Source: Candidatus Bathyarchaeota archaeon (GTDB taxonomy: Archaea > Thermoproteota > Bathyarchaeia > Bathyarchaeales > DTEX01). From it: 64,000 bases of DNA. A program made the translations under genes and the position numbers. Under the pieces are notes generated by a model, which was not told the origin of the DNA, made no database searches, and was given only the letters and a program-made list of their open reading frames with translations. Shown piece after piece: positions 23,216 to 54,231 of this stretch. Position 1 is the first letter of the stretch, and the number at the start of each line of letters is the position of its first letter. Location: assembly GCA_025059045.1 (NCBI GenBank), contig JANXEA010000005.1, positions 1 through 64,000 of the forward strand, given 5' to 3'.

Positions 23216-23222
23216 GGAAATC

Positions 23223-23242
23223 CAATGTAATAACATACATTG
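23223..23242 (-). promoter_or_regulatory. Perfect palindrome downstream of a TATA box (operator)
   Basis: CAATGTA and TACATTG form a perfect 7-base inverted repeat around a 6-base spacer. On the minus strand a TATA box (GTTTTATAAAG, 23243-23253) lies immediately upstream, and the transporter-like gene starts 8 bases downstream. A protein bound here would block the transcription start. The divergent winged-helix gene at 23335 is the natural candidate. Confidence 0.6.
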
Positions 23243-23334
23243 CTTTATAAAACTTTTCATGAGTCCAATTTCATGACCGTAAATGATAATTTCTTCCCTA
23301 AACCTATTATGAAAATATTAGGGCGGCATGCGCC

Positions 23335-24470: not shown

Positions 24471-24527
24471 TTTGATCAAATGACTTTATGTGATGAAAGA
24501 GAAAAACATTCCTATTTTTCACATGCC

Positions 24528-25882: not shown

Positions 25883-27424
25883 TTACACTCGCTTGATGAA
25901 TATCCACGCTACAATCGCTATGACGAGAATCACAATCCCGATTAAAACGTAATAAAACGGATCAGGATCTCTAATAGAGGTTTCCCCGCCACCTACACTG
26001 CCTCCTCCGCCCCCGCTACCGCCACTGCTGGGACCGATAACGTTTAATGTTGCGTTGATAATGCTGATCGTTGAGCCTTCTGGACTTTTCAATGATACGG
26101 TGATATTGTATATTCCTCCGAACTGGTAGATGTGTATGATGGAAGTTGATGTAGTTAAGGTTATGTTGCCGTCTCCGAAGTTCCATTCGTATATGCTTAC
26201 TCTCTCAGATTGGCTTCTGTATGGCGGTATTACGGCGTAGAGTGTAAGGGCTGTTCCCGCTTGGACAGGGTCTGTTAGCGGAGCTTTGAAGCGCCAATCT
26301 TCTCTCTGCAGCTTCGAATCCGTCATTATTTTGGGCTTAACGGGTATGCTGGCACCGGCTTGAGCCATTATCTTTGATCTAAGCGCATCGTCAGCCGGCT
26401 CCACTCTTGCTTCATAATATTCTGAACGGTTGAAAACGTTTTCCGCCTTATAACTCTTCGCGTTTGCTCCGTTTAGCAGGAGATTATTAACCATCTTAAT
26501 GTATCCTTCCTCCGGATCTGAGCCTACTCGGTACTGTGCAACAACCTTTTGGTTTTCCGCCTCAAAGATGTTTGCTTCTGCAAGCACCTGCCCGCCCATT
26601 GCAACGCCGATCGCATAGCTCTGCCAGCCGAAGTAATAGTTGTTGTAAGCGTCGACTTTGCCGAATCTCAATCTGGGAGTACGCTGGACTGTCCTGAAAA
26701 AGAAGTTGTGGTGAAGAGTGACTCGGATGATGGCGTCCCCGGTCTTGCCCGGATCATTTCCGATCAGCATTACCTTGTCATGGTTCCAGAATCTGCACCA
26801 AGAGATGGTGATGTCTGTTGATTGGTTTGTGATGTCAAGTGCTCCGTCCGAGTAGTTTGTGAAGTCGCAATGATGCACCCATATGTCACGTGAGTTGCTA
26901 TCAATAGATAATGCGTCTATGTCCACGTTGGCCGCTGTGTCAAACCTTATGTTTACGATTATAATGTTTGAGGCTTTGCTTATCTTTAATCCATATCCGG
27001 TAATTGTTATCTCAGCCCCTCTTCCGTCGATCGTCTTATTAGATCTGACATTAATCGTGCTTTTAAGCTCAATTGTTCCAGAAACGTCGAAGACTATCCA
27101 TAGAGGCTCACTTGTTGAGGCGGCCTCTCTCAAGCTTCCAGGCCCGCTGTCAGCAAGTGTAGTCACACGGTAGACCCGTCCGTTTAGACCACCAGTCGCG
27201 TTCCTACCAAAGCCCTCCCTTTCTTCAAGCAGTTCCGCCACAGAGAAACCTCTATACGACCAATTATAATCTGCGGTCTCTACGTTCTGTTGCTGGCGCC
27301 AAACTGTTTCTACCACACTTGACTCTTTGCAGATGACCCCGTGGCAGAAGTTAGGAATTATGAGAAGCAGTAGGAGAACAGTTATGAAATACAAAGCTCG
27401 TGCATGTAAAGAGCCCAATTTCAT
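25883..27424 (-). CDS. Secreted, membrane-anchored pectate lyase (PL1) with PKD domain
   Basis: A signal peptide (LYFITVLLLLLIIPNFCHG) is followed by a right-handed beta-helix with PL1 marks: VYRVTTLADSGPGSLREA, KTIDGRGAEITI, DIWVHHCDFTNYSDGALDI, ITISWCRFWNHDKVMLIG and the catalytic-arginine block RTPRLRFGKVDAYNNYY. This enzyme class cleaves polygalacturonate by beta-elimination with calcium. A PKD domain (YEWNFGDGNIT) follows, then a glycine/serine linker and a C-terminal membrane helix ending IKRV. The enzyme should sit outside the cell. The frame extends to 27472, but ATG 27424 gives a normal signal peptide and lies ~35 bases after a TATA-like sequence. Confidence 0.88.
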   Translation of the reverse strand: MKLGSLHARALYFITVLLLLLIIPNFCHGVICKESSVVETVWRQQQNVETADYNWSYRGFSVAELLEEREGFGRNATGGLNGRVYRVTTLADSGPGSLREAASTSEPLWIVFDVSGTIELKSTINVRSNKTIDGRGAEITITGYGLKISKASNIIIVNIRFDTAANVDIDALSIDSNSRDIWVHHCDFTNYSDGALDITNQSTDITISWCRFWNHDKVMLIGNDPGKTGDAIIRVTLHHNFFFRTVQRTPRLRFGKVDAYNNYYFGWQSYAIGVAMGGQVLAEANIFEAENQKVVAQYRVGSDPEEGYIKMVNNLLLNGANAKSYKAENVFNRSEYYEARVEPADDALRSKIMAQAGASIPVKPKIMTDSKLQREDWRFKAPLTDPVQAGTALTLYAVIPPYRSQSERVSIYEWNFGDGNITLTTSTSIIHIYQFGGIYNITVSLKSPEGSTISIINATLNVIGPSSGGSGGGGGSVGGGETSIRDPDPFYYVLIGIVILVIAIVAWIFIKRV

Positions 27425-27498
27425 TTTATGTCTCGTTTTAAGGAATGGAAAGGACCAATAAAAACTTTTCACACTGGAACCATAAAAGTCTCATGGCA

Positions 27499-29373
27499 TC
27501 ATATTGGCAGTAGCCAAATTGAGGAAACTATGAAGCTTATTGCTACCGATATGGTAACGGCGATGCTTACTCCGACGCCGAGACCAGCTGCCAGAAGCCG
27601 GTGATTCGCCGACCACCAATTCTTTCCTTTATACCTCCTTATAGCCATCTTGATCATTAAACCTATGGCAAGTAGAGATGCATAGTGCGGCGTTGTCGCT
27701 GTCCCAGCGGCCAATCCTATTGCGGATAAGAAGCCAAACATTTCAGTTGCAAAGTACGCTATGGCCCCTACTCCAAATGCATATAGGAGCCAGTAGGGAT
27801 TGAAGAGCCCAATTTCTCGACCCTTGATCCATATGCACCTGTTTATGGCTCTCACCCGCCAGAAAATTCTTGCACCTGGGTAAACGCCGGATGGAATAGG
27901 TGCAAGCGACCAGAATAGCTGGACGAACATATACCCAACAAACCATAGTAGAGGTGTGAACATTAGTCTAGTCTTTATCAGGCTCCATATTGAGGTTCCG
28001 GTTAGCTCAGCCACCTTATAATTCTTTAACCAGCCAGTTCCCTCGATGTTTATAAGTGTTGGAACAAACCAGACTTCTACCCCCTTGTATCCGCTCGCGT
28101 AATAGATTAAGTTCATTGGAACATCGACATCAAGGTTTACGCCTGTCTCTCCCACCATTTGACTGTTCACCATTGATAGGGTTAGGGGTGCGAATATGAA
28201 GAGCGGCGCTGCAATGTATAATGGGAAATCTGTGAGCAACATGTAAATTGTTAGTCCAGCCGCTATTGGGGCGGCGATTCCGAGGATTACATAATACTTT
28301 ACTCGTCTCCCCCATGCACTCAGAGAACCAAGAGAGGATATAGCCTTTACAAATTTCCTAGGGTAGCGGAAGATTGGCATCAGTCCTGCTGCTAGCGAGA
28401 ATCCGATAAGCGGTACAGCCCAGAAGTACATGGTCGAACGTGAATATATATCTTCAGCTGACATTCTTGGCAGCCACCAGCTCTGGTATCCCAGAAGAAT
28501 TGGGTCAGTGTCTGGGGCGAGCTGATAGGCGACTGTCAGCCAGTTTCCAAAGAACCAAACGGCATAGGATCCGATAATCATGCTGGCGACCATCTTCTCA
28601 GACAATACAAGCGCGGATATTATTGGGGATAGACTTGTCGCAACGCCGAACATTGCTCCGGGAAAATAATTTTCGATCTGCGCTGAAAAATCATACCATG
28701 GAATTGGGACAAGTTCGATCGATCTCCCCATATATGCTTTGGTTAAATTTGGGATGGCGTAGACTATAAAGCCCCACATAAATCCGATAACGCTTGCCCC
28801 GAAGAGCAGATTTACAGATGATTCTTCTCCCTCGCTAATGGTCTCTATCTGCTGCGCGTAGACTTGTTGAAGTGGAAATGGGAGCTTTTGTATGTCAATG
28901 TAGAATTCCTTGAGTAATAGGCCTAGGGATATGGCCAGTATTGTTCCGAGTAAGTATTGTATAAAATAGAGGAGGAAAGGCGTTGTCCATGAGGGATGCA
29001 GAAATGTTCTAGTCCATTGAATGTTCGCGGATGGGGGCGGCACATACCATTCGGGGATATAATCTGCGATCCCAAATGAGCCTACAATGTCTGAATTTCT
29101 AAAATATACTCGATAAACCATATCTAGTGGAGCGTATGTGCCAAGGCTTGCCAAGAAGCTTATTAAGAAGGCTTCTTGGCGAGTGATTCTTTTTCCAAGC
29201 AGTTTTCCCATCTCCACAAAGAGGAGCATTGCGAATATGGAGACTTCGATCTGCTGGCCTGTCATCAGCTCCAAATAGATGTTTGCTGGGATGAAGACAA
29301 ATATGGAGAAGATACCTGCAAGCATGCTGATCCAGCTTATTCCAGACCTTATTCTTTCATCGGCTTGCATCAT
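27499..29373 (-). CDS. Large polytopic membrane protein (OPT/DUF6785-like)
   Basis: 624 residues with about 14 hydrophobic helices. Segments such as GRRVKYYVILGIAAPIAAG, KLPFPLQQVYAQQIETISEGEE and NYKVAELTGTSIWSLIKTR recall oligopeptide-transporter (OPT) and DUF6785-type families. The assignment is weak. It is the last gene of a tight minus-strand set: the M28-like/FtsX gene ends 6 bases before its ATG at 29373, and the related-looking 750-residue membrane gene lies before that. The pectate lyase gene follows after ~75 bases with its own TATA-like sequence. Confidence 0.6.
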   Translation of the reverse strand: MMQADERIRSGISWISMLAGIFSIFVFIPANIYLELMTGQQIEVSIFAMLLFVEMGKLLGKRITRQEAFLISFLASLGTYAPLDMVYRVYFRNSDIVGSFGIADYIPEWYVPPPSANIQWTRTFLHPSWTTPFLLYFIQYLLGTILAISLGLLLKEFYIDIQKLPFPLQQVYAQQIETISEGEESSVNLLFGASVIGFMWGFIVYAIPNLTKAYMGRSIELVPIPWYDFSAQIENYFPGAMFGVATSLSPIISALVLSEKMVASMIIGSYAVWFFGNWLTVAYQLAPDTDPILLGYQSWWLPRMSAEDIYSRSTMYFWAVPLIGFSLAAGLMPIFRYPRKFVKAISSLGSLSAWGRRVKYYVILGIAAPIAAGLTIYMLLTDFPLYIAAPLFIFAPLTLSMVNSQMVGETGVNLDVDVPMNLIYYASGYKGVEVWFVPTLINIEGTGWLKNYKVAELTGTSIWSLIKTRLMFTPLLWFVGYMFVQLFWSLAPIPSGVYPGARIFWRVRAINRCIWIKGREIGLFNPYWLLYAFGVGAIAYFATEMFGFLSAIGLAAGTATTPHYASLLAIGLMIKMAIRRYKGKNWWSANHRLLAAGLGVGVSIAVTISVAISFIVSSIWLLPI

Positions 29374-29379
29374 CTTTCT

Positions 29380-32300
29380 CTATTCCCCGTTCGACCCGCT
29401 TTTTTGGCCATATTTTGATTTCCAGAGGAGGAACTGCTTTCTAATTTCGTCTACAAATTTAAGCGTTAACCTCTCCCAGTCCTCTGTTAGTCCCGCAGTC
29501 CTCCTAATAGTCAGTCCAGCCTTCCACGTATCCTCTTCGGCGTCTCTGATTAGACGTATTATTGCATCCTGTTTCACGCCTAAGTCATATGGCGCTAAGT
29601 TTACATATAGGCTGAGAACCATCTCTCTATCATCTGCCAACTCTTCCTTGATCTCATCCACATTAAAAATAGGCGCGTCACGGAAGGAGTGGCGCTTGGA
29701 AAACTCTTTAAGGTAATCTATCATCTGCTCAGCCTCTTTCCTATTTGAGAAGGTGAAAGGAAGTGGAAACTCCCAAGTATCCCCAACAGGCTTAGATGAA
29801 GGAGCCCATTTTCTCTCCATACTGGGAGTCACCAACTTTGCAGCCGAGACTATTGGAAAGATTGTTGAGGTTATAACTGTAACCATTGCGACCATTAGAA
29901 CAAGGAGAACATGTGAGGAGGTAGGATCTAATGTTACGCCGGTTGGGGCGATATAGCTAGTTATTGGAAGGGACAGTAGGTAACCTATTATGGAACCGAC
30001 AATAGCATATGTAATTGTTTCCGCTAGGAAGAGGAAACCTATATGTGAGGGTGAGAGACCTATGGAGCTGAGGATCGATATCTCTCTTCGTCTCTCATAA
30101 ACGGCGCTTATGAGCATATTCAATAGTGATAGAATCACGAGAGTTATTGGAACTATTTGGCTTTCAAATCCGAAAGCTCTGTATGTTAACCCTTGGGATA
30201 ACAAGTATATTTTGTCGCCCGAAGTGTAATAGACCGCGTATACGTTGAAAAGATTGAATATTTTTTTAGCCATCTTGGGCACATTGACGCTTTCTAACGG
30301 CTTAATCGATACGCTTGCAACACGTCCTCCCAACGATATTAGAACCTCATATGGGATTATGACATAATAGCTTGGATCCACATGTACGTTCCAGGGATTG
30401 TCGGGGGTTATATCGAACTTTATTGGTGAAAGTTCTTCACCATCAAGGTCTCGCAAGAACTGAATATTGTTACTCATTATTCCTATAACCGTGAAGTTTG
30501 TACCAGCGATTGTAAGGATGTCGCCTATGCTGAAATTTCCTTCCTCCGCGATGGCTTCAGTAATTATACATAGTGGCGCCTTCTCCTGACCTCTTCCAAA
30601 CCATGAACCATTTACTAGAAAGTTTAATCTCGTTATTTCTTTCTCTTCCGGGGTCAGCCCCCACAATGTATTGACTGAAACGTTCCGTCCACTTGTGACC
30701 GATACGCACTCAAATCCGTAGGTTCCATCCACATCCTCGACAGTTCTGAACCTTGGAAACATATATATCCAAGCCCTCGGCGCCACTATAGCTTGATCTC
30801 CAAATTCTGCTTTGAGAAAGTCAACGATTCTAGTTCCTAAGTCGAATCCGCCATAGCCCCACATATCCTTTCGGATAAGTATCCCTTGATAAGGGGGACT
30901 TCTTCCCCTTTCCTCCTCTCTCACACCCACAATCGCGGATACTGAGGAGAAGCTTGAGACGCTGAAAACTAATATTATCAAAGCGATCAGTACAAGTCCG
31001 CTTCTAATCTTCCTTCTTTTCATGTTTTCTATACCCTGCTTGAATGAAATGAAGAATGAACTTCTCATTCTAGATATGTCTATTTCATGTTCGCCTAAGA
31101 GCTTGATGCGGGATGACCTGAGGAGGTTAGCAAAACGCATGAACATTACTATAAGTATTGGGAACATGAGTATAAGCATCGAAAAGCCGATGACATTTAT
31201 CATCGGGCTTGCAGCTATTGAGAAGCCAGGATGGAACAAATAAAGAAAAACGATTAATGAGCTAAAGATGAGGACTAAGGACAGAATCTTCCTCTTTCCC
31301 CTAAAGTCAAGGAAAAGGGCCTCCGCTATTATCGTGAATGGGATAGCGATGAATGAGAAGAAGGGTACAGTTGCAGCTGCGTCTTCGGCTTTGGCTCTGA
31401 AATGCAAATATGCCCTTAAGGCCTTGTTCCAGCTGGCGATGCAGTTAACTAAATACTTGGAATATGAATGATTATGTTCGAGGGCTCTTATAGCCTCTGA
31501 TAACATTTTTTCAGCTTCGATTAGCCCTTCAAACATTTCGCGATTCTCTTGTGAGGGTATATTATCCAATATGCTTGCTGAGATTCTCTTAGTCCACCTT
31601 ATAAGATCTGAGATCCCGCTGTGAAGCTTTATGTATCTTTGCTCTCCAGGTTTCAGAATGTAGCCGTAACCTTCTGGATTGTCGCCTGTACTATTGAGGA
31701 TCATGCCAAAAGGGTATCTATCAACAGTCGCATACATCATCACCTTTATGTATTCGCCTGGGGGAACGGCAAGCACGTAAAGGTTGCTTCGGCTCCATAC
31801 ACCATAACTCAGGACATCTTCGAACTTCTCATTTTTCAGGGAGATTTGAATTGGAACGCTTTCCCCGCTTGGCAGTACTGGTGAAGTCAAGGAACTTGGG
31901 TGAAAGACATCTACTACAAGTTGAGAGCATCTGAAGATGGGTAGGACACCAAGCTCAGGGATGCCGCTACCCGCGCATATGTAGCTAGCGTAGTAGCGGG
32001 ATCTCATGTCGGGGGCGTACAGGATCTCCCCAGTTTCAGCGTCAATAACCCATGCCGATATTAGAAAGCCTACGTATCTTCCGTCTCTCTGCCCAATTCC
32101 GCCCTTAAATAGGTATCTTCCATTTTCGTCGGCGAATGTGAAACGTCTGAACGAAAGTGGCATGTTGAAGAATGTTTTATAGTTGCTTGAGGCCTGGGGT
32201 CCTGCTCCCCCTTCAAGTATGACAAGAGCGTTAGGGACTGGAGAGAACCATCCAATAGAATCATTCCATATTCCAATCATGCCTGTAGCGTTTACTTCCC

Positions 32301-34011
32301 ATCTGCTTACTGTTCCTCCAGCTGAGATCGTGTTCTTTAGTGTCTGCTTGTTTGCCTCTCTGTTCGCAAGCCAGTTTCTTATCACATTCTGGGCGGCCGT
32401 GTTTCCTATCTCACTGGTCCAGTCGAGACTATCAAGCCTTACGATTGAATAAAGTATGAATTCGATTTGGTCCTGGAGGTTTCTGAGATTCACATATTCA
32501 TATCTATCGAATGGTCTGCCTAGGAACTTATTATAATAGGCTGTTGTGAATGCAGATGCAGAGGGGAACTGTGAGAACCCATTGCGCAGAAGGAATATGG
32601 GCTCCATATCATATATTTTTGTGTACCAGCTGAACTGATTTCCTACATCCCACTCAACGTCCAACACGTGGCTGGATGAGAAGATATAGACTGAGTATCT
32701 TTTTTTCCCTAAACTCGCCATGTTTATCTCGGCATATGTATTTGTGAAAAAGTTTTCTAGGTAGAAGGCTGTCTCTGCAGATGTGTAACTATCGAATGTA
32801 TTTCCACACCAGTACACCGTTGTAACCGCTCCAGCCTTCTCTCCGCTGCTACAGGGAACCCACAGGAGTTCATTGCTGCCTGTGTCGAGCTGTATGTTGA
32901 TTAGCCAAAAGATGTTCTTCTCTACGATTAGCCCGAGATCTTTCCTGAGATACCAGCTCCTCATCGGATCTAAGAAGTCATCTATGAACTGGACTGATCC
33001 CTCAAGGTTTTGATGATGAGCTGAAAGCGCTGCAAATATAATAGTATGTTTCGGTCTGTGAAGGCTGAAATACCTGGCTATCTCAAGGAGTGAAGCAATT
33101 CCGCATGCCTCCTGTGCCCCAGGCGCGTACCTAGGGGAGTCGGAATAAGAGTCATAATATGCTATTAGTAGTAGGGATTGGTTAGGCCACTGCGTTCCCC
33201 TTATTTCCCCCCATATGTTCCATGTTTTGACCTTCTCCCAGAATGTGCTGGCTTTTATCAGCACCTCCTCTCCGACATGGCCTAGGAGTCTATTTCTTGC
33301 TTCTTTGGTGGCGATAAATCTTGGAAATTTGAGCGGCAGATCCTCAATAAATGTTGTAATCAGTTGGTACTGCGGACTGAATACGTCATCCTTCAGTGGG
33401 GCGATAAAAGTGTAGAGGGGGTCGGGTTCCATGAATATAACTGCCTTGGCGCCCTGGCGATACAGTTCAATCCATTTGGACGATGCGGATGCCCAATCAA
33501 GCAGAGCAATGCATCCTTCAATTTCCTTTCCGTCAAGGTCCTCTAAGTCAGCGTCTTCTAGGTACATTAGGCGGCCCTTGATTCCTTCCGGGGGCGTCGT
33601 TGAGGGAACGACAAAGTTCGGTCGCGCTGCATATACCTCTATGGTTTCTCCTGTCGAAAGGAATGTTATATTGGCGCCATGATCTATGCAGTCTACAACC
33701 TCAAACTCTTGAACTGTAACATTATCCATCAGACTCCTAAACTGTTCATATATATATTGGGCTGCGATTCTGTTCCCGGGATATCCAGTTGCCCTGCTGC
33801 CGAGACTTGAGAGAAAACGTATATGTTGGTCGAGCAATGTCATATTTATACTTGCTATTACTCGAGAGTAATCAGTGATCAAAAACGCATTGGTGCTACT
33901 AAAGATATGACCGTTTGCCATAGGCGCTGCCTGAATAGAAATGAGTATTAATAGAATGGATGAAACAAGTATCCTGTGAGGCTGTAATATTAAGATTTTT
34001 CGGGACATCAT
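29380..34011 (-). CDS. M28-peptidase-like / FtsX-type permease fusion protein (1543 residues)
   Basis: A signal/anchor helix (about 13-30) precedes an M28 aminopeptidase-like region with a PA-type insert (about 145-220). The M28 core reads AYYDSYSDSPRYAPGAQEACGIASLLEIAR (shown in parts: AYYDS 284-288, APGAQEACG 296-304), then AALSAHHQNLEGS. Usual metal ligands (HxD, DDN and EE) are replaced by YYD, QE and HH, so it is probably inactive as a peptidase. A carboxypeptidase-regulatory-like stretch sits near 600. Two membrane segments near 890-960 and a C-terminal FtsX/MacB permease domain (about 1010-1430: RRKIRSGLVLIALIIL, ERRREISILSSIGLSP) follow. No ABC ATPase partner is in the window. Confidence 0.75.
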   Translation of the reverse strand: MMSRKILILQPHRILVSSILLILISIQAAPMANGHIFSSTNAFLITDYSRVIASINMTLLDQHIRFLSSLGSRATGYPGNRIAAQYIYEQFRSLMDNVTVQEFEVVDCIDHGANITFLSTGETIEVYAARPNFVVPSTTPPEGIKGRLMYLEDADLEDLDGKEIEGCIALLDWASASSKWIELYRQGAKAVIFMEPDPLYTFIAPLKDDVFSPQYQLITTFIEDLPLKFPRFIATKEARNRLLGHVGEEVLIKASTFWEKVKTWNIWGEIRGTQWPNQSLLLIAYYDSYSDSPRYAPGAQEACGIASLLEIARYFSLHRPKHTIIFAALSAHHQNLEGSVQFIDDFLDPMRSWYLRKDLGLIVEKNIFWLINIQLDTGSNELLWVPCSSGEKAGAVTTVYWCGNTFDSYTSAETAFYLENFFTNTYAEINMASLGKKRYSVYIFSSSHVLDVEWDVGNQFSWYTKIYDMEPIFLLRNGFSQFPSASAFTTAYYNKFLGRPFDRYEYVNLRNLQDQIEFILYSIVRLDSLDWTSEIGNTAAQNVIRNWLANREANKQTLKNTISAGGTVSRWEVNATGMIGIWNDSIGWFSPVPNALVILEGGAGPQASSNYKTFFNMPLSFRRFTFADENGRYLFKGGIGQRDGRYVGFLISAWVIDAETGEILYAPDMRSRYYASYICAGSGIPELGVLPIFRCSQLVVDVFHPSSLTSPVLPSGESVPIQISLKNEKFEDVLSYGVWSRSNLYVLAVPPGEYIKVMMYATVDRYPFGMILNSTGDNPEGYGYILKPGEQRYIKLHSGISDLIRWTKRISASILDNIPSQENREMFEGLIEAEKMLSEAIRALEHNHSYSKYLVNCIASWNKALRAYLHFRAKAEDAAATVPFFSFIAIPFTIIAEALFLDFRGKRKILSLVLIFSSLIVFLYLFHPGFSIAASPMINVIGFSMLILMFPILIVMFMRFANLLRSSRIKLLGEHEIDISRMRSSFFISFKQGIENMKRRKIRSGLVLIALIILVFSVSSFSSVSAIVGVREEERGRSPPYQGILIRKDMWGYGGFDLGTRIVDFLKAEFGDQAIVAPRAWIYMFPRFRTVEDVDGTYGFECVSVTSGRNVSVNTLWGLTPEEKEITRLNFLVNGSWFGRGQEKAPLCIITEAIAEEGNFSIGDILTIAGTNFTVIGIMSNNIQFLRDLDGEELSPIKFDITPDNPWNVHVDPSYYVIIPYEVLISLGGRVASVSIKPLESVNVPKMAKKIFNLFNVYAVYYTSGDKIYLLSQGLTYRAFGFESQIVPITLVILSLLNMLISAVYERRREISILSSIGLSPSHIGFLFLAETITYAIVGSIIGYLLSLPITSYIAPTGVTLDPTSSHVLLVLMVAMVTVITSTIFPIVSAAKLVTPSMERKWAPSSKPVGDTWEFPLPFTFSNRKEAEQMIDYLKEFSKRHSFRDAPIFNVDEIKEELADDREMVLSLYVNLAPYDLGVKQDAIIRLIRDAEEDTWKAGLTIRRTAGLTEDWERLTLKFVDEIRKQFLLWKSKYGQKSGSNGE

Positions 34012-34025
34012 GATACCATGCTAAG

Positions 34026-36278
34026 TCATACTCGTGAGAGTTGATAAAGCCAGTATGTGGGGTAGCTGTAAAACGCTATTAGGAACCATAGTATTGATAT
34101 CGGCACAAAGAAGCCTACGACGAGCCCCATGCACAAGGGCGATATCTTGTTGTTATAATCTTCAACTAGACCGGCCTTGAATGTTAGGTATTTGAGAATT
34201 AGCCCGACGAATAGAGCTGGGATGACGCAACTTTCTCCCATAAATATTCCTATAAGTATTCCTTCTGGAAGCAGTCTAAGCCATGGTAGCCTTCTCCTCG
34301 CAAAATAGATTAGCGATACAATTGCAAACCCTAACGTCAGATAGCCGAAAATCTGGATTATTCCCTGCGTTCCGAGCTTGTATATGTTAGCAAACTGGAA
34401 TCGAACGGTTTCGTCGTCCCAGTCTCCTGAACGGAGTTTTCCATAAACATTACTCAACGCGTTAGTGTATATGCTCACGGATCCATGTGGCATACCTAAT
34501 GGTCCTCCTTCATAGAATGGCCAGATATGGAATCTGAGAACAGCGAAGGGTGTCGCCACAATAGGCATTACAAGAAACGTGACTAGAAGAGCAAGCCCCA
34601 CGTCTCTTTTTCTCAGATTTAATGCATTGCCGATTCTAAAATTATATAAGGAGAAGGCCATCTGCTCGATCTGCCTGTCCATCCATCCATCTAACGTTCG
34701 CATACCCGCTACGGCTGTTGTGGCCCATCCGGCAGGGGTTGGGGTTGCCTTTGGACCAAAGTAAAGTAATGAGAAGCCGCCTGCAAACTTCCATGGCCCC
34801 CTACCGAAGTATGCCCCATAACCGCTCACTGTATTTAGAAAATGGTTCCCCCCAGTATATACCACTACTCTCGTCGCCCCTATCACGATTAGTGTATTAA
34901 TCAATAGAGTTAAGATTATGATCTTTACGTCTGCTTCAAGTGCTATCCAGCATGAGAACCACACAATCATTGAACAGATCATTAAGGTGACCACTATTCT
35001 CAACGGGAGCGGTGACAGAGCTTCCAACTCTGGATCGGGTTTTCCAAAAGCCGATCGGAATATTCTCTTAACACGCTTCCTATTCACGTAGAGCGGGTAT
35101 ATCACTATGGCCAGCAGCATGCCTATAGGCAGAACCGTATATATTCCTCTTGCCCAGCTCCCGCCAACATACGACTCGTAGAGCATTCTTTTTGAGACAT
35201 CGGGCCAAGCGTATCCAGAGGAGGATGATGGGAACATACCGATTTGTGAGAAGGTTACTGGGATAAGCATCATGAAGATGAAATACCCTATGAGGCAGGA
35301 GAGGGAAACATCTATGGGAAGAAGATAGGCAAAACCCAAATGATGCGGCATAAAGGATACGAAGAGCGGGACCCAAGGTAGGAGTCCCAGTGGTGTAAGA
35401 TCAAAGACGGGAGCAATTCTTATGGGTGTACCGAAAAGGAAACCATTATATTCTGTTACAGGTCCAGCTTGGACCGGATTAATCAGTGCTGCGTAGACTC
35501 CATATCCATGGGCCAAAATCGCGTAGGCTGCAGATATCAAGAAGCCTATCATAAACCACTTAACTTTACCAACCTTTCCACCACCATCCACGTTTTCTGT
35601 TTGAACCAGGGATATTGCTCCAGCCTGTATTTCAGCCCAGAGTGATGGGATATTTTCAACATCAAACCAAATTATCTTGAGGATCATGGAGAGGGATAGG
35701 AACGCCATTGTCATTGAAGTATAGTATAAGATGGACCAGACCATCGATGGATAGAATGCTGGGTGAATTGACCACGTCGACACAGGCACGACAGCAGAGT
35801 ATACAGAAGGATCTTTAGGGGATATCAAGGATGGTATCATCGTCCATATTCCGCTTGAGGCCCTATGCCAATATGCAGCCAACCCGATTACATTGTAGTC
35901 CCAGCATTTGCCCCAGTCAGAGCAGTTTGGTCCATGAATGAAATTATAGAAGAAGCATGTGGACAACATTATGGAGAATATAACAAGTTCCGGTGACAAC
36001 GGTTTTTTTCTTAAATTTTTTATGAGATATGCAGCGAGAAGGTTTACTGTCATAAAGAAACCTATGGAAATGGGCCAGCTACTTGCCACGCGGTAAAAAT
36101 ATCTATCTGTTTGGTAAACCTCTCGAATATTATCATACCTTAATAATTGGACTATCCCTTCAGCGAAATTTCTGATTATAAGGTTATGGTACCCAGTTAT
36201 AATGATCACCAAAAGCAGGCCTATAGCCAAAACCTTTAGTGTGAGCCCCTTACCAACCTTATATTCTTCGCTCAACAT
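34026..36278 (-). CDS. Large polytopic membrane protein (DUF6785/DUF6784-like)
   Basis: 750 residues with roughly 16 membrane segments. Features such as FMPHHLGFAYLLPIDVSLSC in the middle and LLPEGILIGIFMGESCVIPA near the end resemble the DUF6785-DUF6784 arrangement known from archaea and planctomycetes. No function is established for that family. The long extracytoplasmic loops (Trp/Tyr-rich) and position directly upstream of the M28-like/FtsX gene (15-base gap) suggest the three are one membrane complex or pathway. ATG at 36278, with a TATA-like sequence about 30 bases upstream. Confidence 0.6.
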   Translation of the reverse strand: MLSEEYKVGKGLTLKVLAIGLLLVIIITGYHNLIIRNFAEGIVQLLRYDNIREVYQTDRYFYRVASSWPISIGFFMTVNLLAAYLIKNLRKKPLSPELVIFSIMLSTCFFYNFIHGPNCSDWGKCWDYNVIGLAAYWHRASSGIWTMIPSLISPKDPSVYSAVVPVSTWSIHPAFYPSMVWSILYYTSMTMAFLSLSMILKIIWFDVENIPSLWAEIQAGAISLVQTENVDGGGKVGKVKWFMIGFLISAAYAILAHGYGVYAALINPVQAGPVTEYNGFLFGTPIRIAPVFDLTPLGLLPWVPLFVSFMPHHLGFAYLLPIDVSLSCLIGYFIFMMLIPVTFSQIGMFPSSSSGYAWPDVSKRMLYESYVGGSWARGIYTVLPIGMLLAIVIYPLYVNRKRVKRIFRSAFGKPDPELEALSPLPLRIVVTLMICSMIVWFSCWIALEADVKIIILTLLINTLIVIGATRVVVYTGGNHFLNTVSGYGAYFGRGPWKFAGGFSLLYFGPKATPTPAGWATTAVAGMRTLDGWMDRQIEQMAFSLYNFRIGNALNLRKRDVGLALLVTFLVMPIVATPFAVLRFHIWPFYEGGPLGMPHGSVSIYTNALSNVYGKLRSGDWDDETVRFQFANIYKLGTQGIIQIFGYLTLGFAIVSLIYFARRRLPWLRLLPEGILIGIFMGESCVIPALFVGLILKYLTFKAGLVEDYNNKISPLCMGLVVGFFVPISILWFLIAFYSYPTYWLYQLSRV

Positions 36279-36387: not shown

Positions 36388-37977
36388 CTATTTCTTTCTT
36401 CGAACAACCGCGAAGATCACGGTGACCGCTATAACTGCGACGACACCGATGCCAGCTATCAGGTATGGATCGAACGAGCTTTTCTTCGGGGAAACTGTAA
36501 CTTGCGCGGATATCCTATCCGTCCCGCCCCTATAGTCCTCAACAGTAAGTGTCACATTATATTGCCCTTCTGCCGCGAATATATGGATGATCGTTGGAAC
36601 AGAGACTGTAGTTACGTTCCCATCCCCAAAGTTCCATGTATATTTAACAACGTTCGGTTGGGATGCTGATGCGTTGAAAGTTACCGCTTCGCCTGCCAGC
36701 GGGTTGGTCGGCGAGAAGGTGAAGGAAGCCTTTGGCCCTGTGTAAAGCTCGCCAAAGACGTACAAGTTATCATCCATCGATCCAACAATAAGGAGGCCGC
36801 CTACAATCGCAGGGGCACCACGTATGTCTCCGCCAGTCTGATAACTCCAGACAACGTCGCCTGTCGTTGCATTTAGGCAGTATAATACATCATTAGACGA
36901 CCCGATGAAAACAAGCCCATCCGCCACGCTCGCTGAGGAGTAAGAAAAATCCCCTGCGATGGATCCGCCAGTATTGAATCTCCATACTTGTTCTCCAGTT
37001 TCAGCGTTTAGGCAGTATACATACCCGTCAGCTGAAAGAATGTAGATTTTCCCATAAGCCGCTGCTGGAGTGCTCCTTACCATCCCGCCTGTCTTAAACC
37101 TCCATTTCTGCTCACCAGTATTCATGTCTAAAGCGTAGACGTATTGGTCGTCGGATCCTATGTAAACTTTCCCATAAGCAACTGTGGGGGATCCTCTGAA
37201 ATCCTTTGGATCTGTTGGGCTCTGGAACCTCCAGATCTCAGTTCCGGTTAAGAGGTCTAAGCAGTAAACTTTTTTGCTGCTTGAACCCATGTAGACCTTT
37301 CCGCCGACGATGGCTGGAGTGCCTCGAACTTGACCTCCAGTATTAAACGCCCATATAATCCTCTTCTCCTCAGCCATTTCTACCTCGGAGGCGTTTAATG
37401 CATATATTGTATGATCACAGGAGGCCACTATAACCATTCCGTTAACGAACTTTGGATGAGCACGGGAGATTTTGTCATAAGTTGAGAATGTCCACAATAT
37501 CCTTCCAGTGGCGGCATCCAAGCAGTAGAGTCTACCATCTTCACATCCTGCGAAGACCTTTCCTTCGGCTACAGCAGGCGCTCCGCGCATGGTTGTTCCA
37601 GTTACTCGACGCCACAATATCTTCCCTGTAATCAAGTCTATTGCATATACGCTGGAATCGGACCCAGCGGCCGTTGCCACATAGATTACGCCATCATAAA
37701 CAGCTGGGCCTCCTTCCGGCACATCTCCTATTGTCAGGTTCCATAAAAGACTGCCTTTTCTAGGCGCTGGGCTATCAGAGTAGCCAGTGTTAGCTAAGTC
37801 ATAATGGAAGCAAGGCCAAGAGTACTTAACCTTTGAAACTTCATCCAAATTTTGAAATGAAAACGATGAGACCAAATTACAATGGGACATAATTGCCACG
37901 GTTAGGATTAGAGTCGGAAGCAGAATTGCCATTGCGGCTGAAAATCTGCACTTAGCCGTAGAATGCACGCTCCTCAC
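36388..37977 (-). CDS. Secreted PQQ-type beta-propeller protein with PKD domain and membrane anchor
   Basis: A signal peptide (LLPTLILTVAIMSHC) is followed by about eight repeats of the form YAIDLITGKILWRR / YCLDAATGRILWTF, the PQQ-like (outer-membrane-assembly-like) propeller blade. A PKD domain (YTWNFGDGNVTT) and a C-terminal membrane helix ending RRKK follow. Without the calcium/PQQ ligands this is a binding or scaffold protein outside the cell, not clearly a dehydrogenase. The start is GTG 37977 (a GAGG lies before it); ATG 37932 is an alternative. The PKD-plus-anchor tail is like that of the pectate lyase. Confidence 0.85.
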   Translation of the reverse strand: MRSVHSTAKCRFSAAMAILLPTLILTVAIMSHCNLVSSFSFQNLDEVSKVKYSWPCFHYDLANTGYSDSPAPRKGSLLWNLTIGDVPEGGPAVYDGVIYVATAAGSDSSVYAIDLITGKILWRRVTGTTMRGAPAVAEGKVFAGCEDGRLYCLDAATGRILWTFSTYDKISRAHPKFVNGMVIVASCDHTIYALNASEVEMAEEKRIIWAFNTGGQVRGTPAIVGGKVYMGSSSKKVYCLDLLTGTEIWRFQSPTDPKDFRGSPTVAYGKVYIGSDDQYVYALDMNTGEQKWRFKTGGMVRSTPAAAYGKIYILSADGYVYCLNAETGEQVWRFNTGGSIAGDFSYSSASVADGLVFIGSSNDVLYCLNATTGDVVWSYQTGGDIRGAPAIVGGLLIVGSMDDNLYVFGELYTGPKASFTFSPTNPLAGEAVTFNASASQPNVVKYTWNFGDGNVTTVSVPTIIHIFAAEGQYNVTLTVEDYRGGTDRISAQVTVSPKKSSFDPYLIAGIGVVAVIAVTVIFAVVRRKK

Positions 37978-38122
37978 ACTAAAATTTCATATTCTAATGT
38001 GAAAGAATTAGGATTTAAAAGTTTCTTTAAAAATGGCCGTAGATTTCACCGTTAATAATATAAGGTAGAAGGGATGAAAATAGAAATGCTAATTTTTGAT
38101 AAGAAATAGGGGTTTGGAAGAG

Positions 38123-40876
38123 ATGGATAAAAGAGCAATTAATAATGGAGCAGCAGCACTTCTGATGGGCATACTTCTAGCCTCGACAATCGCTCTGCTT
38201 GCAAAGCCTAGCCTAGGAAGCCAGCTGATCCTATATCCTTGGCCCATGGGAGGCAGGAGCATATCTAGAACCAATTATACGCCTGCTTCTGGACCAGTAA
38301 AAAATGAGACCGCATGGACCTTCCAGACAGGTGGGCCGATCAGGTCAGGTGTAGCCGTTGTCGGCGGCGTAGTCTACGTAGGCTCCAATGACGGCTGCTT
38401 ATATGCCCTTAACCTCACAAATGGAAAGATGATCTGGAAGTTCCAGACAGCGGGCAACGTAACCGCTGAACCAGCGGTGGCGGATGGAAGAGTGTACTTC
38501 CTCTCAACGGAGACCCCTCCAAACCTTTACTGCCTAGAGGCGGCGACAGGTAAAAGGCTTTGGAACTATAGCGCGATATATGGGGGTGCAATATACTGTG
38601 GTCCAGCGATAGATGGTGGCAGAGTGGTATTCAACGTTGGCATGTATGTTTATTGTGTGAATGCGACGTCTGGAGAGCCCATATGGTCTCCATGCAACCT
38701 TCATGACAACCCTATCGTCGGCGGAGTTACAATTTATGGTGACAGGATCTATGTTGGCAATGACAGAAACATGCTTTACGTAGTCTACATGGCCACTGGT
38801 ACATGGACGGCTGGGGATAGAATGGCTTTAGGAGGGGACTTCGCAGGTTATGCGGTCATATCCGAGGGGCTGTTATACGTTGCAATGGAGGACAACTTAA
38901 CCATAATCTTTAACTTGGCAACCCCGCTCCCGCACACTGAAGTTAGGAGAATAACTATTCCAGATAAGACCCATGGCATTGCAGTCTCTGGGACACTGCT
39001 TGTAGTCCAGGGTAGAGACCGAGGATCATTATACGCGTATAACTCTTCAACTGGAGACCTATTGTGGAGCTTCACGGTAACACCCAGTGCAACATCATGG
39101 ACATTCCCAATCATTTCCGGCAATGGACTCGTCTACTTTGCCGCTGTTGACGGATACATCTACGCGCTAGACGCGAGGAGCGGCAGGATGGTGTGGAGCT
39201 ATCGGACCAATGCGACGGCCGGCACGCCACTTTGGGCGATTGGCGCAGTGGTGGATGACAGGTTTATCATTGGGCATGAGGACGGTGTAGTCTACTGCTT
39301 CGGAAAGAAGGCACCAGAGGAGGAACCTCCAGTACCAGGAGAAGAAGTCGTTTATGAGTGGCCCATGGGCATGGGAAACGTTTACAGGACAGGCTATACG
39401 GATGCGAAGGGACCCGTATCAAACAAGACCTTATGGACATTTAGGACTGGCGGGCCGATAAGATCTGGTGTTGCAGTAGCAGGTGGGATTGTATACGTTG
39501 GATCTGATGACAACTGCCTCTATGCAATTAACCTAACAACCGGAGAGCAGCTATGGAAATTTGAGACGGGGCATGATGTCCGGTCAGATCCGGCGGTTGC
39601 CGACGGCATGGTATACTTTGGCTCTAGGGACAGGACATTCTACTGTCTTAACGCAACAACTGGGGCGCTTATATGGAACTTCACGACTCCATTCGAATTA
39701 TACGGCGGATCTGTAGTTGCAGGTGGCAGAGTAATCTTCGGAACAAGAGGGAATGGCACGGTATACTGCTTGGACAGCAAGACAGGTCGGCTTATCTGGT
39801 CCGCAGTTACTGGAAGGGACATTAGAGGGGGGCCAGCAATCTCCGAAGGGAAGGTGCTCATAGGCAATGATGATGATAGGGTCTATATGATCGATTTTGT
39901 CTCAGGCGTCATAGAGAGGAACGTGAGCATGGGTGCAGACATCTACCGCTACGTCGTAGTCTCAGGAGACCTTGTGTTAGTGGTTAACCAGGCAACGGAT
40001 GGTAGGATTGGAATCTTCAGCCTGCCAACATTAGCATCAGTCAGGAATATTACAGGGGTATTTAAGGTCCGCGGGGGATTAGCGGTCGCTGGAGGTGTCG
40101 CTTATCTCGCAGGGAGGGAGGACGGGGTTGTACAAGCATTTAACATTACTACTGGAGAGCAGATATGGAACTTCACAACAGGGGTTACTGGTTCATGGTA
40201 TTCGCTGCCCGTTGTCTCTGGTAACGGTTTAGTCTACTTCGCAGCTATGAATGGACAGGTTTACGCGCTAGATGCTAAGACTGGTAAGATAGTATGGAGC
40301 TACCTGACTGAAAAGACGAATATTACTGAGTGCTGGGCTCACGGCGCAATAGTCAATAATAGACTGATCATTGGGCATGAGGACGGTGTAGTCTACTGCT
40401 TCGGAGAGATCTTAGTCACCTTGAGGGTTACCCTGCAGTGGACGAACTCTACTGCCATATCGGGCGCAGAGGTAACAATTGCTGGGCAGACCAAGCAGAC
40501 CAATGCCTCGGGAGTAGCCGTTTTCAACTTCACAAGCGGCGTCTACAAATTGACTGTTAAATACATGGGAGTCACAATGGAGGAAATAGCAAACCTCACC
40601 ATGTATTACGACCGAGCATTAATGTTTAGAGAGGAGGCTGGACCATACGAGAGGATAATACTGCTCAATTCACAGATTTCAAGCCTGCAAAGCCAAATTT
40701 CAAGCCTCAACAGTCAAATCGGTAGTCTCCAAGGTCAAGTGAGCAGCCTGCAAGGACAAGTGTCAAGCTGGCAGACTCAGGCCTCCAACAACCTATACAT
40801 GGGTCTTGGTGCGGGCGTAGTCGTCGGCCTAATTGTAGGGTTTGCCGTCGCTTTCATGCTACGCAGGAAAGGATAG
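38123..40876 (+). CDS. Double PQQ-type propeller surface protein with coiled-coil stalk
   Basis: A signal peptide (LLMGILLASTIALLAKPSLG) is followed by two copies of the same propeller: each begins YPWPMGGR/YEWPMGMG, then FQTGGPIRSGVAV / FRTGGPIRSGVAV and ends IIGHEDGVVYCFG. Copy one covers about residues 35-395 and copy two about 410-760. A small beta-sandwich (GAEVTIAGQTKQTNASGVAVF), a coiled coil with heptads SSLQSQISSLNSQIGSLQ, and a C-terminal membrane helix with RRKG follow. It probably projects the propellers from the cell. The frame is open from 38096, but ATG 38123 with GGAAG before it gives the signal peptide. Confidence 0.85.
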   Translation: MDKRAINNGAAALLMGILLASTIALLAKPSLGSQLILYPWPMGGRSISRTNYTPASGPVKNETAWTFQTGGPIRSGVAVVGGVVYVGSNDGCLYALNLTNGKMIWKFQTAGNVTAEPAVADGRVYFLSTETPPNLYCLEAATGKRLWNYSAIYGGAIYCGPAIDGGRVVFNVGMYVYCVNATSGEPIWSPCNLHDNPIVGGVTIYGDRIYVGNDRNMLYVVYMATGTWTAGDRMALGGDFAGYAVISEGLLYVAMEDNLTIIFNLATPLPHTEVRRITIPDKTHGIAVSGTLLVVQGRDRGSLYAYNSSTGDLLWSFTVTPSATSWTFPIISGNGLVYFAAVDGYIYALDARSGRMVWSYRTNATAGTPLWAIGAVVDDRFIIGHEDGVVYCFGKKAPEEEPPVPGEEVVYEWPMGMGNVYRTGYTDAKGPVSNKTLWTFRTGGPIRSGVAVAGGIVYVGSDDNCLYAINLTTGEQLWKFETGHDVRSDPAVADGMVYFGSRDRTFYCLNATTGALIWNFTTPFELYGGSVVAGGRVIFGTRGNGTVYCLDSKTGRLIWSAVTGRDIRGGPAISEGKVLIGNDDDRVYMIDFVSGVIERNVSMGADIYRYVVVSGDLVLVVNQATDGRIGIFSLPTLASVRNITGVFKVRGGLAVAGGVAYLAGREDGVVQAFNITTGEQIWNFTTGVTGSWYSLPVVSGNGLVYFAAMNGQVYALDAKTGKIVWSYLTEKTNITECWAHGAIVNNRLIIGHEDGVVYCFGEILVTLRVTLQWTNSTAISGAEVTIAGQTKQTNASGVAVFNFTSGVYKLTVKYMGVTMEEIANLTMYYDRALMFREEAGPYERIILLNSQISSLQSQISSLNSQIGSLQGQVSSLQGQVSSWQTQASNNLYMGLGAGVVVGLIVGFAVAFMLRRKG
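39266..39304 (+). repeat. 39-base exact repeat, copy 1 (propeller gene)
   Basis: This stretch is identical, base for base, to 40367-40405 (both encode IIGHEDGVVYCFG). It marks a duplicated end of each propeller and implies a recent duplication or gene conversion within the gene, since flanking codons have diverged. Confidence 0.8.
40367..40405 (+). repeat. 39-base exact repeat, copy 2 (propeller gene)
   Basis: Second copy of the 39-base repeat at 39266-39304, lying at the end of the second propeller. Confidence 0.8.
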
Positions 40877-49177: not shown

Positions 49178-49186
49178 ACGAACTCT

Positions 49187-51160: not shown

Positions 51161-51171
51161 AGCGTATCCCT

Positions 51172-51978: not shown

Positions 51979-52018
51979 CCGATTTTCACCGCAATTAACA
52001 ATGAACATCCTGAGCCCA

Positions 52019-53047
52019 TCAATTGCTTGAATATATTAGGTGTATTCTGTTGCCCATGGGGTCCGGGTTCTTCAGGAAGACGCTTTTTACACCTTTCTTT
52101 ACTTTAGGCTCCTCAATCATTATGCCCATTTTCTGCAGATAGTTGCATGCCTCCTCAAAGTTTGAGACCCTTATTGCGATGTGGCATCTCTGCCGCTCAC
52201 CAGTCTTCATCACTTCGATCCTTCCTGCCCCCTGACCAGAGATGAAGAAGGAAGTTGCTCCCTCAGCCTTCGAAAAGCCAAATATCCTAGCATACCAGTC
52301 TACAAGTTCTTCCGCTGCGACCCCTTCAGGGTAAAGCCCCACGTGCTCAACCCCAAGAAAGAGCGGCGTACCCCTCGCCTCCTTTATCCACCATAGACAT
52401 TGTTCAACCTTCTTCGCGATCTCTTCGAACTTGCCCGCGCTGACTAGATCTTTTGAGATGAGTTTTGAGCCTATGCCGAGCGCGGCTGTGCCAGCCTTTA
52501 TCCATTCGAATATGCTCTCACGTGTTGGGTCAACTCCTCCCGTAGGCATGATCTTCGCCCATGGGCATGGGCCAAGAAGATTTCTTACGAATTCTGGACC
52601 CCCTACCTCCGCGCCTGGAAAAATCTTCACTATGTCGCAGCCCAGCTCCTCCGCCTGAGATATCTCGGACGCGCTTCCGCAGCCCGGCATATATGGAACC
52701 TTCCTCCTGTTGCATACCTTTGCAATCTCAGGGTTCAGTACGGGTCCCACGACGAAGTTGGCGCCACTATTAATGTATAGGGCCGCTGTTGCAGGATCGA
52801 TTACTGATCCCACCCCCAAGATTACGTCTGAAAACTCTTTGTTGCACCATTTGGCTAGCTCCGTGAAAACTTGGTATGCAAAGTCTCCCCGGTTGGTGAA
52901 CTCTATCACCTTTGCTCCGCCGTCTACGCATGCCATCACAATCTTTTTCGCGGTTTCAAGATCCCCCTCATAAAAGACTGGGACGAGCCCGAGTTCAAGG
53001 ATCTTCCCTATGACGACATGCTTAAGGAATTTTGCCAATACTTTCAA
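52019..53047 (-). CDS. eda: KDPG aldolase fused to a VOC (glyoxalase-like) domain
   Basis: Residues 1-215 are a KDPG/KHG aldolase: VIEFTNRGD (Glu49), [24 protein letters not shown] and [11 protein letters not shown] with the Schiff-base lysine at 141. This splits 2-keto-3-deoxy-6-phosphogluconate into pyruvate and glyceraldehyde 3-phosphate. The C-terminal ~110 residues ([49 protein letters not shown]) are a vicinal-oxygen-chelate domain. Such a fusion is unusual and could isomerise or open the substrate (inference). Start: TTG 53047 or the TTG three codons on, which has a GGGAGG 10 bases before it. Confidence 0.88.
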
Positions 53048-53056
53048 GCCTCCCTC

Positions 53057-54094
53057 TTACCTTGCAATCCTTCCAGACGCTATTCCTGCTGCAAGCCTTT
53101 CAACTTCATCCACACCGATCATGTTAGAATCCCCTACAATCGTATGTTTTAGGCATGAGGCTGCAACTGCGAAGTTTAGAACCCTCTGGAGATCTTCTCC
53201 GAACTTCAGCAGCCCATATATGAGGCCCGCCGCAAAGGCGTCTCCGCCGCCAACCCTATCCACGATATGCGTTATCTGATAAACAGGAGCCTTATAGAAT
53301 GTTTTCCCATCATAGAGGACGCCTGACCATGTGTTGTGGCTTGCGCTAATGCTTCCCCTAAGGGTAATAGCCACCTTCTTCAGGTTGGGAAAAATCTCCA
53401 TAAGTCTCTGCGCAACTGGCAGGTACTTGTCAGCTTCAACCTTCCCCGAAATAACGTCTACTCCCGGCGCTTTGATCCCAAAAACTTTCTCTGCGTCTTC
53501 CTCGTTACATATGGCTATGTCAGCATATCTAAGTAGCTCCGCCATGACTTCACTCGCTGTCTTCCCCCACTTCCAAAGCTGTGCCCGATAGTTCAGGTCT
53601 GCGGAGACCGTTAAGCCCGCCGCTTTAGCCTTCTGGACGGCATCTAAGCATGCTTCGGCAGCGCCCTTGCTCACAGCTGGCGTTATTCCTGTCCAATGGA
53701 ACCAGCAGGCGTCAGTGAAGACCTTTTCCCAGCTGATCATTCCCGGAGTTATCGTTGCAAACGAGGAGTTCGCCCTGTCATAGATCACTTTGCTTCCTCT
53801 CTGGACTGCTCCTGTCTCGAGGAAGTAGATTCCGAGCCTGTCTCCTCCTCGAATGACATTATCAACCTTTACCCCAAATTGGCGTATATAATTGAGACAG
53901 GCATCCCCCAGATCATTGGGCGGGAGACGTGTCACGAACTCAACTGGAATCTTGAAGTTGGCAAGCGAGATCGCCACATTCGCTTCCCCTCCCCCATAGG
54001 TCGCATCGAAGGATCTGGCTTGGATAAACCTCTGAAAGCCTGGCGGTGAAAGACGGAGCATAATCTCGCCGAAGGTTACAACCTTTTTGTCCAT
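53057..54094 (-). CDS. kdgK: 2-keto-3-deoxygluconate kinase (PfkB family)
   Basis: VVTFGEIMLRLSPPG and ATYGGGEANVAISL open the ribokinase fold, and VDRVGGGDAFAAGLIYGLL near residue 285 is the catalytic GxGD region. The layout fits archaeal and bacterial KDG kinase, which makes KDPG with ATP. The open frame begins at 54151; ATG 54094 (MDKKVVTFGE) is preferred. It is the first gene of a tight five-gene operon (gaps of about 10 bases) that continues with eda/VOC. Confidence 0.88.
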   Translation of the reverse strand: MDKKVVTFGEIMLRLSPPGFQRFIQARSFDATYGGGEANVAISLANFKIPVEFVTRLPPNDLGDACLNYIRQFGVKVDNVIRGGDRLGIYFLETGAVQRGSKVIYDRANSSFATITPGMISWEKVFTDACWFHWTGITPAVSKGAAEACLDAVQKAKAAGLTVSADLNYRAQLWKWGKTASEVMAELLRYADIAICNEEDAEKVFGIKAPGVDVISGKVEADKYLPVAQRLMEIFPNLKKVAITLRGSISASHNTWSGVLYDGKTFYKAPVYQITHIVDRVGGGDAFAAGLIYGLLKFGEDLQRVLNFAVAASCLKHTIVGDSNMIGVDEVERLAAGIASGRIAR

Positions 54095-54231
54095 ACCCAA
54101 AACCCCACGCAACCTATTCTCTCCTGAACTACGTATTTTTACTTTTCGCAACCCATCACCTTAAAATCAAAATCATCTTGCAGCCTTTTTTAGTTTAGTC
54201 GTAGAGAACCCGATCCAGCAGATCAGAAATT

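Follow-up and report, generated by a model that had tools for sequence, protein, structure and literature searches.

A gene trio recurrent in Bathyarchaeota and other prokaryotes joins an M28-like pseudo-peptidase/FtsX-type permease fusion to two OPT-fold proteins, a candidate machine for oligosaccharide uptake

Results

We analysed a window of 64,000 nucleotides from a Candidatus Bathyarchaeota archaeon (assembly GCA_025059045.1, contig JANXEA010000005.1, positions 1 to 64,000). Within it three adjoining genes, here called the trio, encode a DUF6785/DUF6784 membrane protein, a long protein that fuses an M28-like pseudo-peptidase to a MacB/FtsX-type permease, and a membrane protein of the OPT family (Table 1). 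An original prediction, made from the sequence alone, had described three open reading frames separated by 15 and 6 bases; the frames, all on the minus strand, and the 6-base gap between the long protein and OPT genes were found as described, and the gap between the DUF6785 and long protein genes measured 14 bases instead of 15. Open reading frame starts were set mechanically, and nearly all genomes used in this study are metagenome-assembled.

Table 1. Coordinates of the trio, the parts of its long protein and associated genes in the window (all on the minus strand; TM, transmembrane).
Feature	Coordinates	Strand	Basis
DUF6785/DUF6784 membrane protein, 750 residues, trio gene 1, OPT-fold carrier subunit	34026..36278	-	Pfam DUF6785 E 2.4e-15, DUF6784 E 6.8e-8
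M28-like pseudo-peptidase + MacB/FtsX-type permease fusion, 1543 residues, trio gene 2	29380..34011	-	Pfam FtsX, Peptidase_M28 and MacB_PCD over cut-off
N-terminal hydrophobic segment, residues 14-32, signal peptide or anchor	33916..33972	-	Hydropathy 2.19, kept in family average
Extracytoplasmic region, residues 38-880: M28-like domain with PA-like insert, beta-sandwich (carboxypeptidase-regulatory-like), helical stalk	31372..33900	-	AlphaFold, Foldseek
Former metal/catalytic site, residues 285-338: YYDS, GAQE, HHQNLEG	32998..33159	-	Family alignment
Three TM helices joining ectodomain to permease, residues 882-958	31138..31368	-	Hydropathy, kept in family average
MacB-type permease unit, residues 1006-1392: TM1, MacB_PCD, FtsX domain TM2-4	29836..30996	-	PF12704, PF02687; hydropathy; NCBIfam lolCE sub-threshold
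C-terminal domain, residues 1396-1543, predicted cytosolic, conserved	29383..29826	-	Invariant W/P/G/R/Q positions across six paralogs
OPT-family membrane protein, 624 residues, trio gene 3	27499..29373	-	Pfam OPT 23 bits (cut-off 25.8); paralog L011 57.8 bits; six-paralog alignment
Pectate lyase (PL1-type) + PKD domain, signal peptide, C-terminal membrane anchor	25883..27472	-	Pectate_lyase_4 E 3.1e-34, PKD (Pfam)
PQQ-type beta-propeller + PKD domain, C-terminal membrane anchor	36388..37977	-	PQQ_2 E 1.4e-53, PKD_4 E 5.4e-17; TM 507-525
KDPG aldolase + KDG kinase genes	52019..54151	-	Pfam Aldolase, PfkB; NF005499 330 bits (cut-off 275); T. maritima KDG kinase 2afb E 4.7e-103

The extracytoplasmic part of the long protein has an M28 fold. 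Its M28 domain scores 37.7 bits in Pfam against a cut-off of 21.3, and an AlphaFold model of the ectodomain based on 70 sequences is confident (pLDDT 81.5, pTM 0.88) and closest to zinc aminopeptidases with PA inserts (Foldseek matches to 6hc7 and 2ek8, E about 1e-22), with the transferrin receptor also among the best PDB matches. At the former metal site the window copy carries YYDS for HxDS, QE at the GAxD position and HH for EE. These are the replacements named in the original prediction, whose claim of an inactive M28 fold fused to an FtsX permease is borne out. The family alignment has 82 homologs spanning the former metal site, and none of them retains the Glu-Glu pair; with the pair, the two-zinc centre and the catalytic Glu are missing. 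The first position of the pair is His in 67 of the 82 and its second is aromatic in 60 (W 31, F 16, Y 13); in the HxD motif the zinc-binding His is kept in 32 of the 82 and the Asp in all of them. Since the loss is family-wide, we rejected the explanation that it is a quirk or an assembly error of the window copy. The domain thus keeps its fold, has lost its chemistry throughout the family and shows a distinctive His/aromatic replacement motif, which is what one would expect if it served for binding. Receptors of the M28 fold, such as the transferrin receptor and nicastrin, are a precedent for lost metal ligands. A search of plasmids gave M28 peptidases as the sole kind of match.

The membrane part of the same protein shows the topology of a type VII ATP-binding cassette (ABC) permease of the MacB kind by Pfam and hydropathy, with one helix, an extracytoplasmic domain and three helices. 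The LolCDE equivalog cut-offs are not reached (34.8 versus 362 bits for NCBIfam lolCE, 237 versus 308 bits for LolD).

The two proteins that flank the long protein had been predicted to be giant transporters of about 14 to 16 helices; the 12 and 14 strong helices seen by hydropathy are compatible with this. They are related to each other. In a comparison by hhalign the OPT and DUF6785 profiles match over their full length (585 columns, probability 99.6, E 1.7e-24), and the AlphaFold model of the DUF6785 protein (pLDDT 73) has a sole strong PDB match, HvYS1 (7wst, E 2e-5, TM-score 0.51/0.61), an OPT/YSL carrier that works as a proton-driven symporter (PMC9691689). The profile alignment rules out two unrelated transporters, and together with the fold match it identifies the pair as two diverged, homologous subunits of the OPT fold. 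The 624-residue protein falls under the OPT cut-off by itself and is assigned to the family with its paralog and the six-paralog alignment. Sequence searches of the PDB with the OPT and DUF6785 profiles gave no matches.

The trio is neither confined to the window nor to one genome. The host genome (1.42 Mb, 98% complete) encodes six long M28-FtsX proteins, each with an adjoining OPT and DUF6785-like partner. Identity among the six is 27-31% for the long protein, 26-36% for OPT and 19-23% for DUF6785, and the expansion is therefore old. A scan of GTDB species genomes for homologous loci yielded 79, spread over Bathyarchaeota, Brockarchaeota, Thermofilaceae, Calditenuaceae/Thaumarchaeota, Alkanophagales, Armatimonadota and Poribacteria. 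In a census with profiles from the six host paralogs, 80 loci, host genome included, carried the long protein; OPT was present in 63 of them, DUF6785 in 48 and all three genes in 45. Gene order differs among loci, and this speaks against the loci having simply inherited a single arrangement. The neighbourhood search suggested at the outset thus shows a conserved recurrence of the trio far beyond chance. The host encodes three more proteins, of about 1000 residues, that have the MacB part and a carboxypeptidase-regulatory-like domain in place of M28 (L009:16461-19511, L012:14699-17722 and L014:8016-11027), a form common in relatives.

For the FtsX part, the original prediction had proposed looking elsewhere for a partner ABC ATPase. 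In Armatimonadota-type loci (L023, L025, L031, L052, L072 and L081, of which L023, L031 and L072 are close relatives of one another) the genes for the long protein, OPT, a mini-FtsX protein and a LolD/MacB-type ATPase form one run. The mini-FtsX has about 210 residues and four helices and bears no ectodomain. A locus of Poribacteria (L087) has the ATPase only, and two others (L030, L089) have neither. In the host the best homologs of the Armatimonadota ATPase (68% identity) and mini-FtsX (45% identity) lie side by side, tail to tail, on another contig, C8, with a second ATPase (61%) about 3 kb from the pair. Linkage is also seen in a Bathyarchaeote locus (L044), where an ATPase 94% identical to that of C8 stands 172 bases upstream of a DUF6785 - long protein pair, and in relative G016, where the mini-FtsX lies 1.8 kb from a trio. 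On these findings we rejected the idea that an ATPase is absent altogether.

Of 23 relatives that have the long-protein family, counted in its M28 or its 1000-residue form, 17 carry an ortholog of the mini-FtsX; of 18 relatives lacking the family, none does (Fisher 7e-7). The ortholog is present at one copy per genome. Four relatives with a mini-FtsX have the 1000-residue form, and a full-length M28-FtsX protein was not detected in them. Among the Bathyarchaeote relatives compared, the ATPase is 92-95% identical and the long proteins about 30%, a pattern to be expected if the motor is under constraint from many partners. The mini-FtsX is probably the other permease half beside the MacB/FtsX half of the long protein, with which it would form a heterodimer, and gene counts and linkage suggest that the one motor set on C8 could be shared by all six receptor-permeases of the host.

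The genes around the trios point to sugars. In the window the pectate lyase gene starts 26 bases past the OPT gene, and its product has an RxPxxR motif at residue 264 and a membrane helix at residues 508-526; it is the probable substrate-generating enzyme for the trio. The PQQ-type propeller, a possible surface component, is encoded 109 bases upstream of the trio. As the spacing is short and the strand the same, the five genes may belong to a single transcription unit. Carbohydrate enzymes adjoin five of the six host trios: a polysaccharide lyase (PL) of family 1 in the window; a glycoside hydrolase (GH) of family 51, a weak GH27/36-type match and a BNR sialidase-like protein at L009; a PL1/PQQ fusion at L010; an oligogalacturonate lyase PL22 at L011; and GH42, GH30 and GH10 at L015. 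Both PL1 genes of the host and one of its two PL22 genes are near trios (p about 0.003 for three of four under random placement). At the other loci we took a census of 103 neighbours within 5 kb, in which the families listed include PL1, PL22, GH2, 4, 13, 28, 29, 30, 31, 38, 53, 57, 106, 130 and apiosidase. Carbohydrate enzymes at E<=3e-43 made up 10 of the 103 and none of 100 control proteins, which were drawn from Bathyarchaeote-like genomes only (p 9e-4). At four loci the long gene has a TrmB sugar regulator nearby, at a distance of 0, 5, 676 or 687 bases; two of the four touch it. Gfo/Idh/MocA oxidoreductases (17 loci), URO-D-like proteins (10) and sugar-isomerase-like proteins (8) recur. 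The lower pathway of pectin/uronate catabolism is represented in the window by genes for a KDPG aldolase and a KDG kinase, which lie 16-18 kb upstream of the trio and are associated with the transporter without belonging to it.

The original prediction had left the ligand as peptides or glycans. Glycans are a possible ligand, and peptides are unlikely given that the neighbours are carbohydrate enzymes. If the OPT pair imported oligopeptides, with the M28-like domain as a peptide receptor that has the fold without the chemistry, the system would match what OPT and M28 families act on, and the best structural matches are indeed aminopeptidases. We nevertheless consider this improbable: in either neighbour set the 25 commonest families include no peptidase, against many glycosidases and lyases, TrmB regulators are adjacent, and the domain has lost the metal centre by which active relatives hold their peptide. 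Sugar could also move outwards, with the ABC unit and the OPT pair pushing out or building S-layer glycans or exopolysaccharide, as MacB-type systems include exporters and lipoprotein-trafficking machines (PMC5985334). This we hold to be very improbable, for the neighbours are degradative (PL1, PL22, GH families) and come with Gfo/Idh/MocA, isomerase-like, KDG kinase and KDPG aldolase genes, and no glycosyltransferase is among the commonest neighbour families. The binding protein of CUT1 sugar importers, SBP_bac_1 (PF01547), has no match in the whole host genome.

Some further observations concern the neighbourhood. The URO-D-like genes beside trios in 10 loci (L058, L078, L018, L047 and L076 among them) are of the cobalamin methyltransferase type. 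The aldolase and kinase genes belong to a minus-strand run at 48110-54151 of DHO dehydrogenase-like, FAD-binding, SDR, KDPG aldolase and KDG kinase genes, which fits uronate/pectin catabolism; assignment of the SDR (51172-52008) as KduD is not supported, since it fails the KduD cut-off and passes the PRK12745 3-ketoacyl reductase model. Two divergently transcribed PQQ-type propeller proteins lie at 36388-40876, one with PKD and the other with a coiled-coil anchor and a duplicated propeller repeat, and similar propellers are fused to a pectate lyase at L010:3-2747. Soluble proteins of about 300 residues with an initial GWxG motif (L025:16526-17503, L034:15610-16500, L087:20711-21691) are encoded downstream of the OPT or long gene in Armatimonadota, Poribacteria and Calditenuaceae; the two that were scanned match no Pfam family. 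Beside the DUF6785 or long gene of archaeal trios stands a recurrent soluble protein of about 220 residues (L015:11699-12394, L060:6545-7204, L021:6905-7594, L083:6792-7430), of which the one scanned had no Pfam match. The window also encodes a SpoIIM-like membrane protein with a zinc ribbon (23799-24479) and a weak match to an ECF riboflavin S-component (22025-23260).

Discussion

We propose that the trio forms a machine for taking up oligosaccharides; the dead peptidase would be the receptor, a shared type VII ABC the motor and the OPT-fold pair the conduit. We regard the case for this reading as evenly balanced. Surface-anchored enzymes, in the window the pectate lyase, would cut the polysaccharide, and the metal-free M28-like domain of the 1543-residue protein would bind the released oligosaccharide outside the membrane. 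The MacB/FtsX-type half of the long protein would be one half of the permease and the mini-FtsX probably the other, driven by the LolD/MacB-type ATPase, one C8 motor set serving all six host receptor-permeases. ATP-driven movement of the ectodomain might then pass the sugar to the DUF6785 and OPT proteins, which could carry it through the membrane, probably with protons.

Several points weigh against such a machine. To our knowledge, characterised OPT/YSL substrates are peptides or metal chelates and not sugars. Most archaeal loci have no ATPase nearby, the host genome holds other LolD-type ATPases, and in six relatives with the long protein (G002, G013, G014, G019, G020 and G037, their genomes partly incomplete) no mini-FtsX ortholog was found. 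Divergence correlations that involve DUF6785 are weak (0.45-0.50) among the six host trios. The absence of SBP_bac_1 is uncorrelated with the trio among 41 relatives (8 of 19 versus 8 of 22) and so has little weight. Calditenuaceae-type loci (L034, L036, L038 and L041) have the long protein without OPT or DUF6785; separation of the three genes, which the original prediction had taken as grounds for refutation, is seen in such a minority of loci only, and intact metal sites, its other ground, are not seen in any of the 82 homologs. Finally, characterised MacB-type ABC proteins move no substrate across their own membrane (PMC5985334), and because of this the coupling to the OPT pair is offered as a proposal only.

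The same background feeds the strongest rival, in which one operon encodes two independent devices. The OPT-fold pair would carry sugar as any secondary carrier does. The M28-MacB protein would serve for mechanotransmission, activating polysaccharide-degrading enzymes at the surface or bringing them into position, in the way that FtsEX acts on hydrolases. Known type VII ABC systems (FtsEX, MacB, LolCDE) act outside the membrane and move nothing through it (PMC5985334; PMC10694151), a surface-anchored pectate lyase lies directly downstream of the trio, and the Calditenuaceae-type loci manage without OPT. Joint action is nevertheless argued for by the tight adjacency of OPT, which is on the same strand with a gap of <300 bases in 50 of 63 loci, and by the correlated divergence of the trio members over 45 loci (Mantel r 0.90-0.93, confounded by shared ancestry and thus partly due to it); many loci, moreover, have no adjoining surface enzyme. 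We therefore think this rival unlikely, though it deserves to be taken seriously.

If the uptake machine were real in full, it would be a new transporter class. Many pseudo-enzyme receptor-permeases would draw on one type VII ABC motor, and this motor would drive or gate a heteromeric carrier of the OPT fold that imports oligosaccharides. It would be a main route of plant-polymer uptake in several uncultured archaeal lineages and some Armatimonadota. We advance this wider claim tentatively, with doubt outweighing belief.

The components belong to known superfamilies, and the assembled system appears to be undescribed, in line with the original prediction that no known system has this set. The literature searched, outside which most subscription papers fall, makes no mention of DUF6785 or of the trio combination; papers on polysaccharide use by Bathyarchaeia and Brockarchaeota do not name the system, and those on Bathyarchaeia and Tardisphaera give carbohydrate enzymes and name no such transporter. 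Uptake of polysaccharide fragments by Bathyarchaeota, Brockarchaeota and related archaea is largely unassigned, though their genomes are equipped for digestion, and the conserved trio with its linked motor offers specific, testable protein candidates. If the ABC and OPT parts are indeed coupled, uptake would be energised in a novel manner, and both the DUF6785/DUF6784 families and the pseudo-M28 receptor would gain assigned roles.

Each part of the trio resembles a known system and departs from it. With type VII ABC systems (MacB/LolCDE/FtsEX) it shares the MacB_PCD and FtsX permease topology and, in Armatimonadota, a LolD/MacB-type ATPase encoded alongside. Its permease, however, bears a pseudo-M28 ectodomain of about 840 residues and three extra helices, its probable partner half is a mini-FtsX without ectodomain, it is linked to OPT-fold carriers, and in archaea its ATPase is usually encoded away from the permease. 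Both flanking proteins have the fold and homology of the OPT superfamily (OPT/YSL, e.g. HvYS1), but here two diverged members are paired beside an ABC permease in a sugar context and not one of peptides or metal chelates. The long protein shares the M28 fold with PA-like insert with M28 peptidases and their non-peptidase relatives (transferrin receptor, nicastrin), and differs in being prokaryotic, fused to an ABC permease and marked by a conserved His/aromatic replacement motif of its own. In group II ECF transporters one energising ATP-driven module is shared by many substrate-specific receptors. The logic proposed here is alike, although the proteins are unrelated and sharing in the trio is suggested by gene counts and linkage only. 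With SusCD and CUT1 importers, finally, the trio would share a role in oligosaccharide uptake beside degradative enzymes, yet it is made of different protein families, in a host genome without the SBP_bac_1 component.

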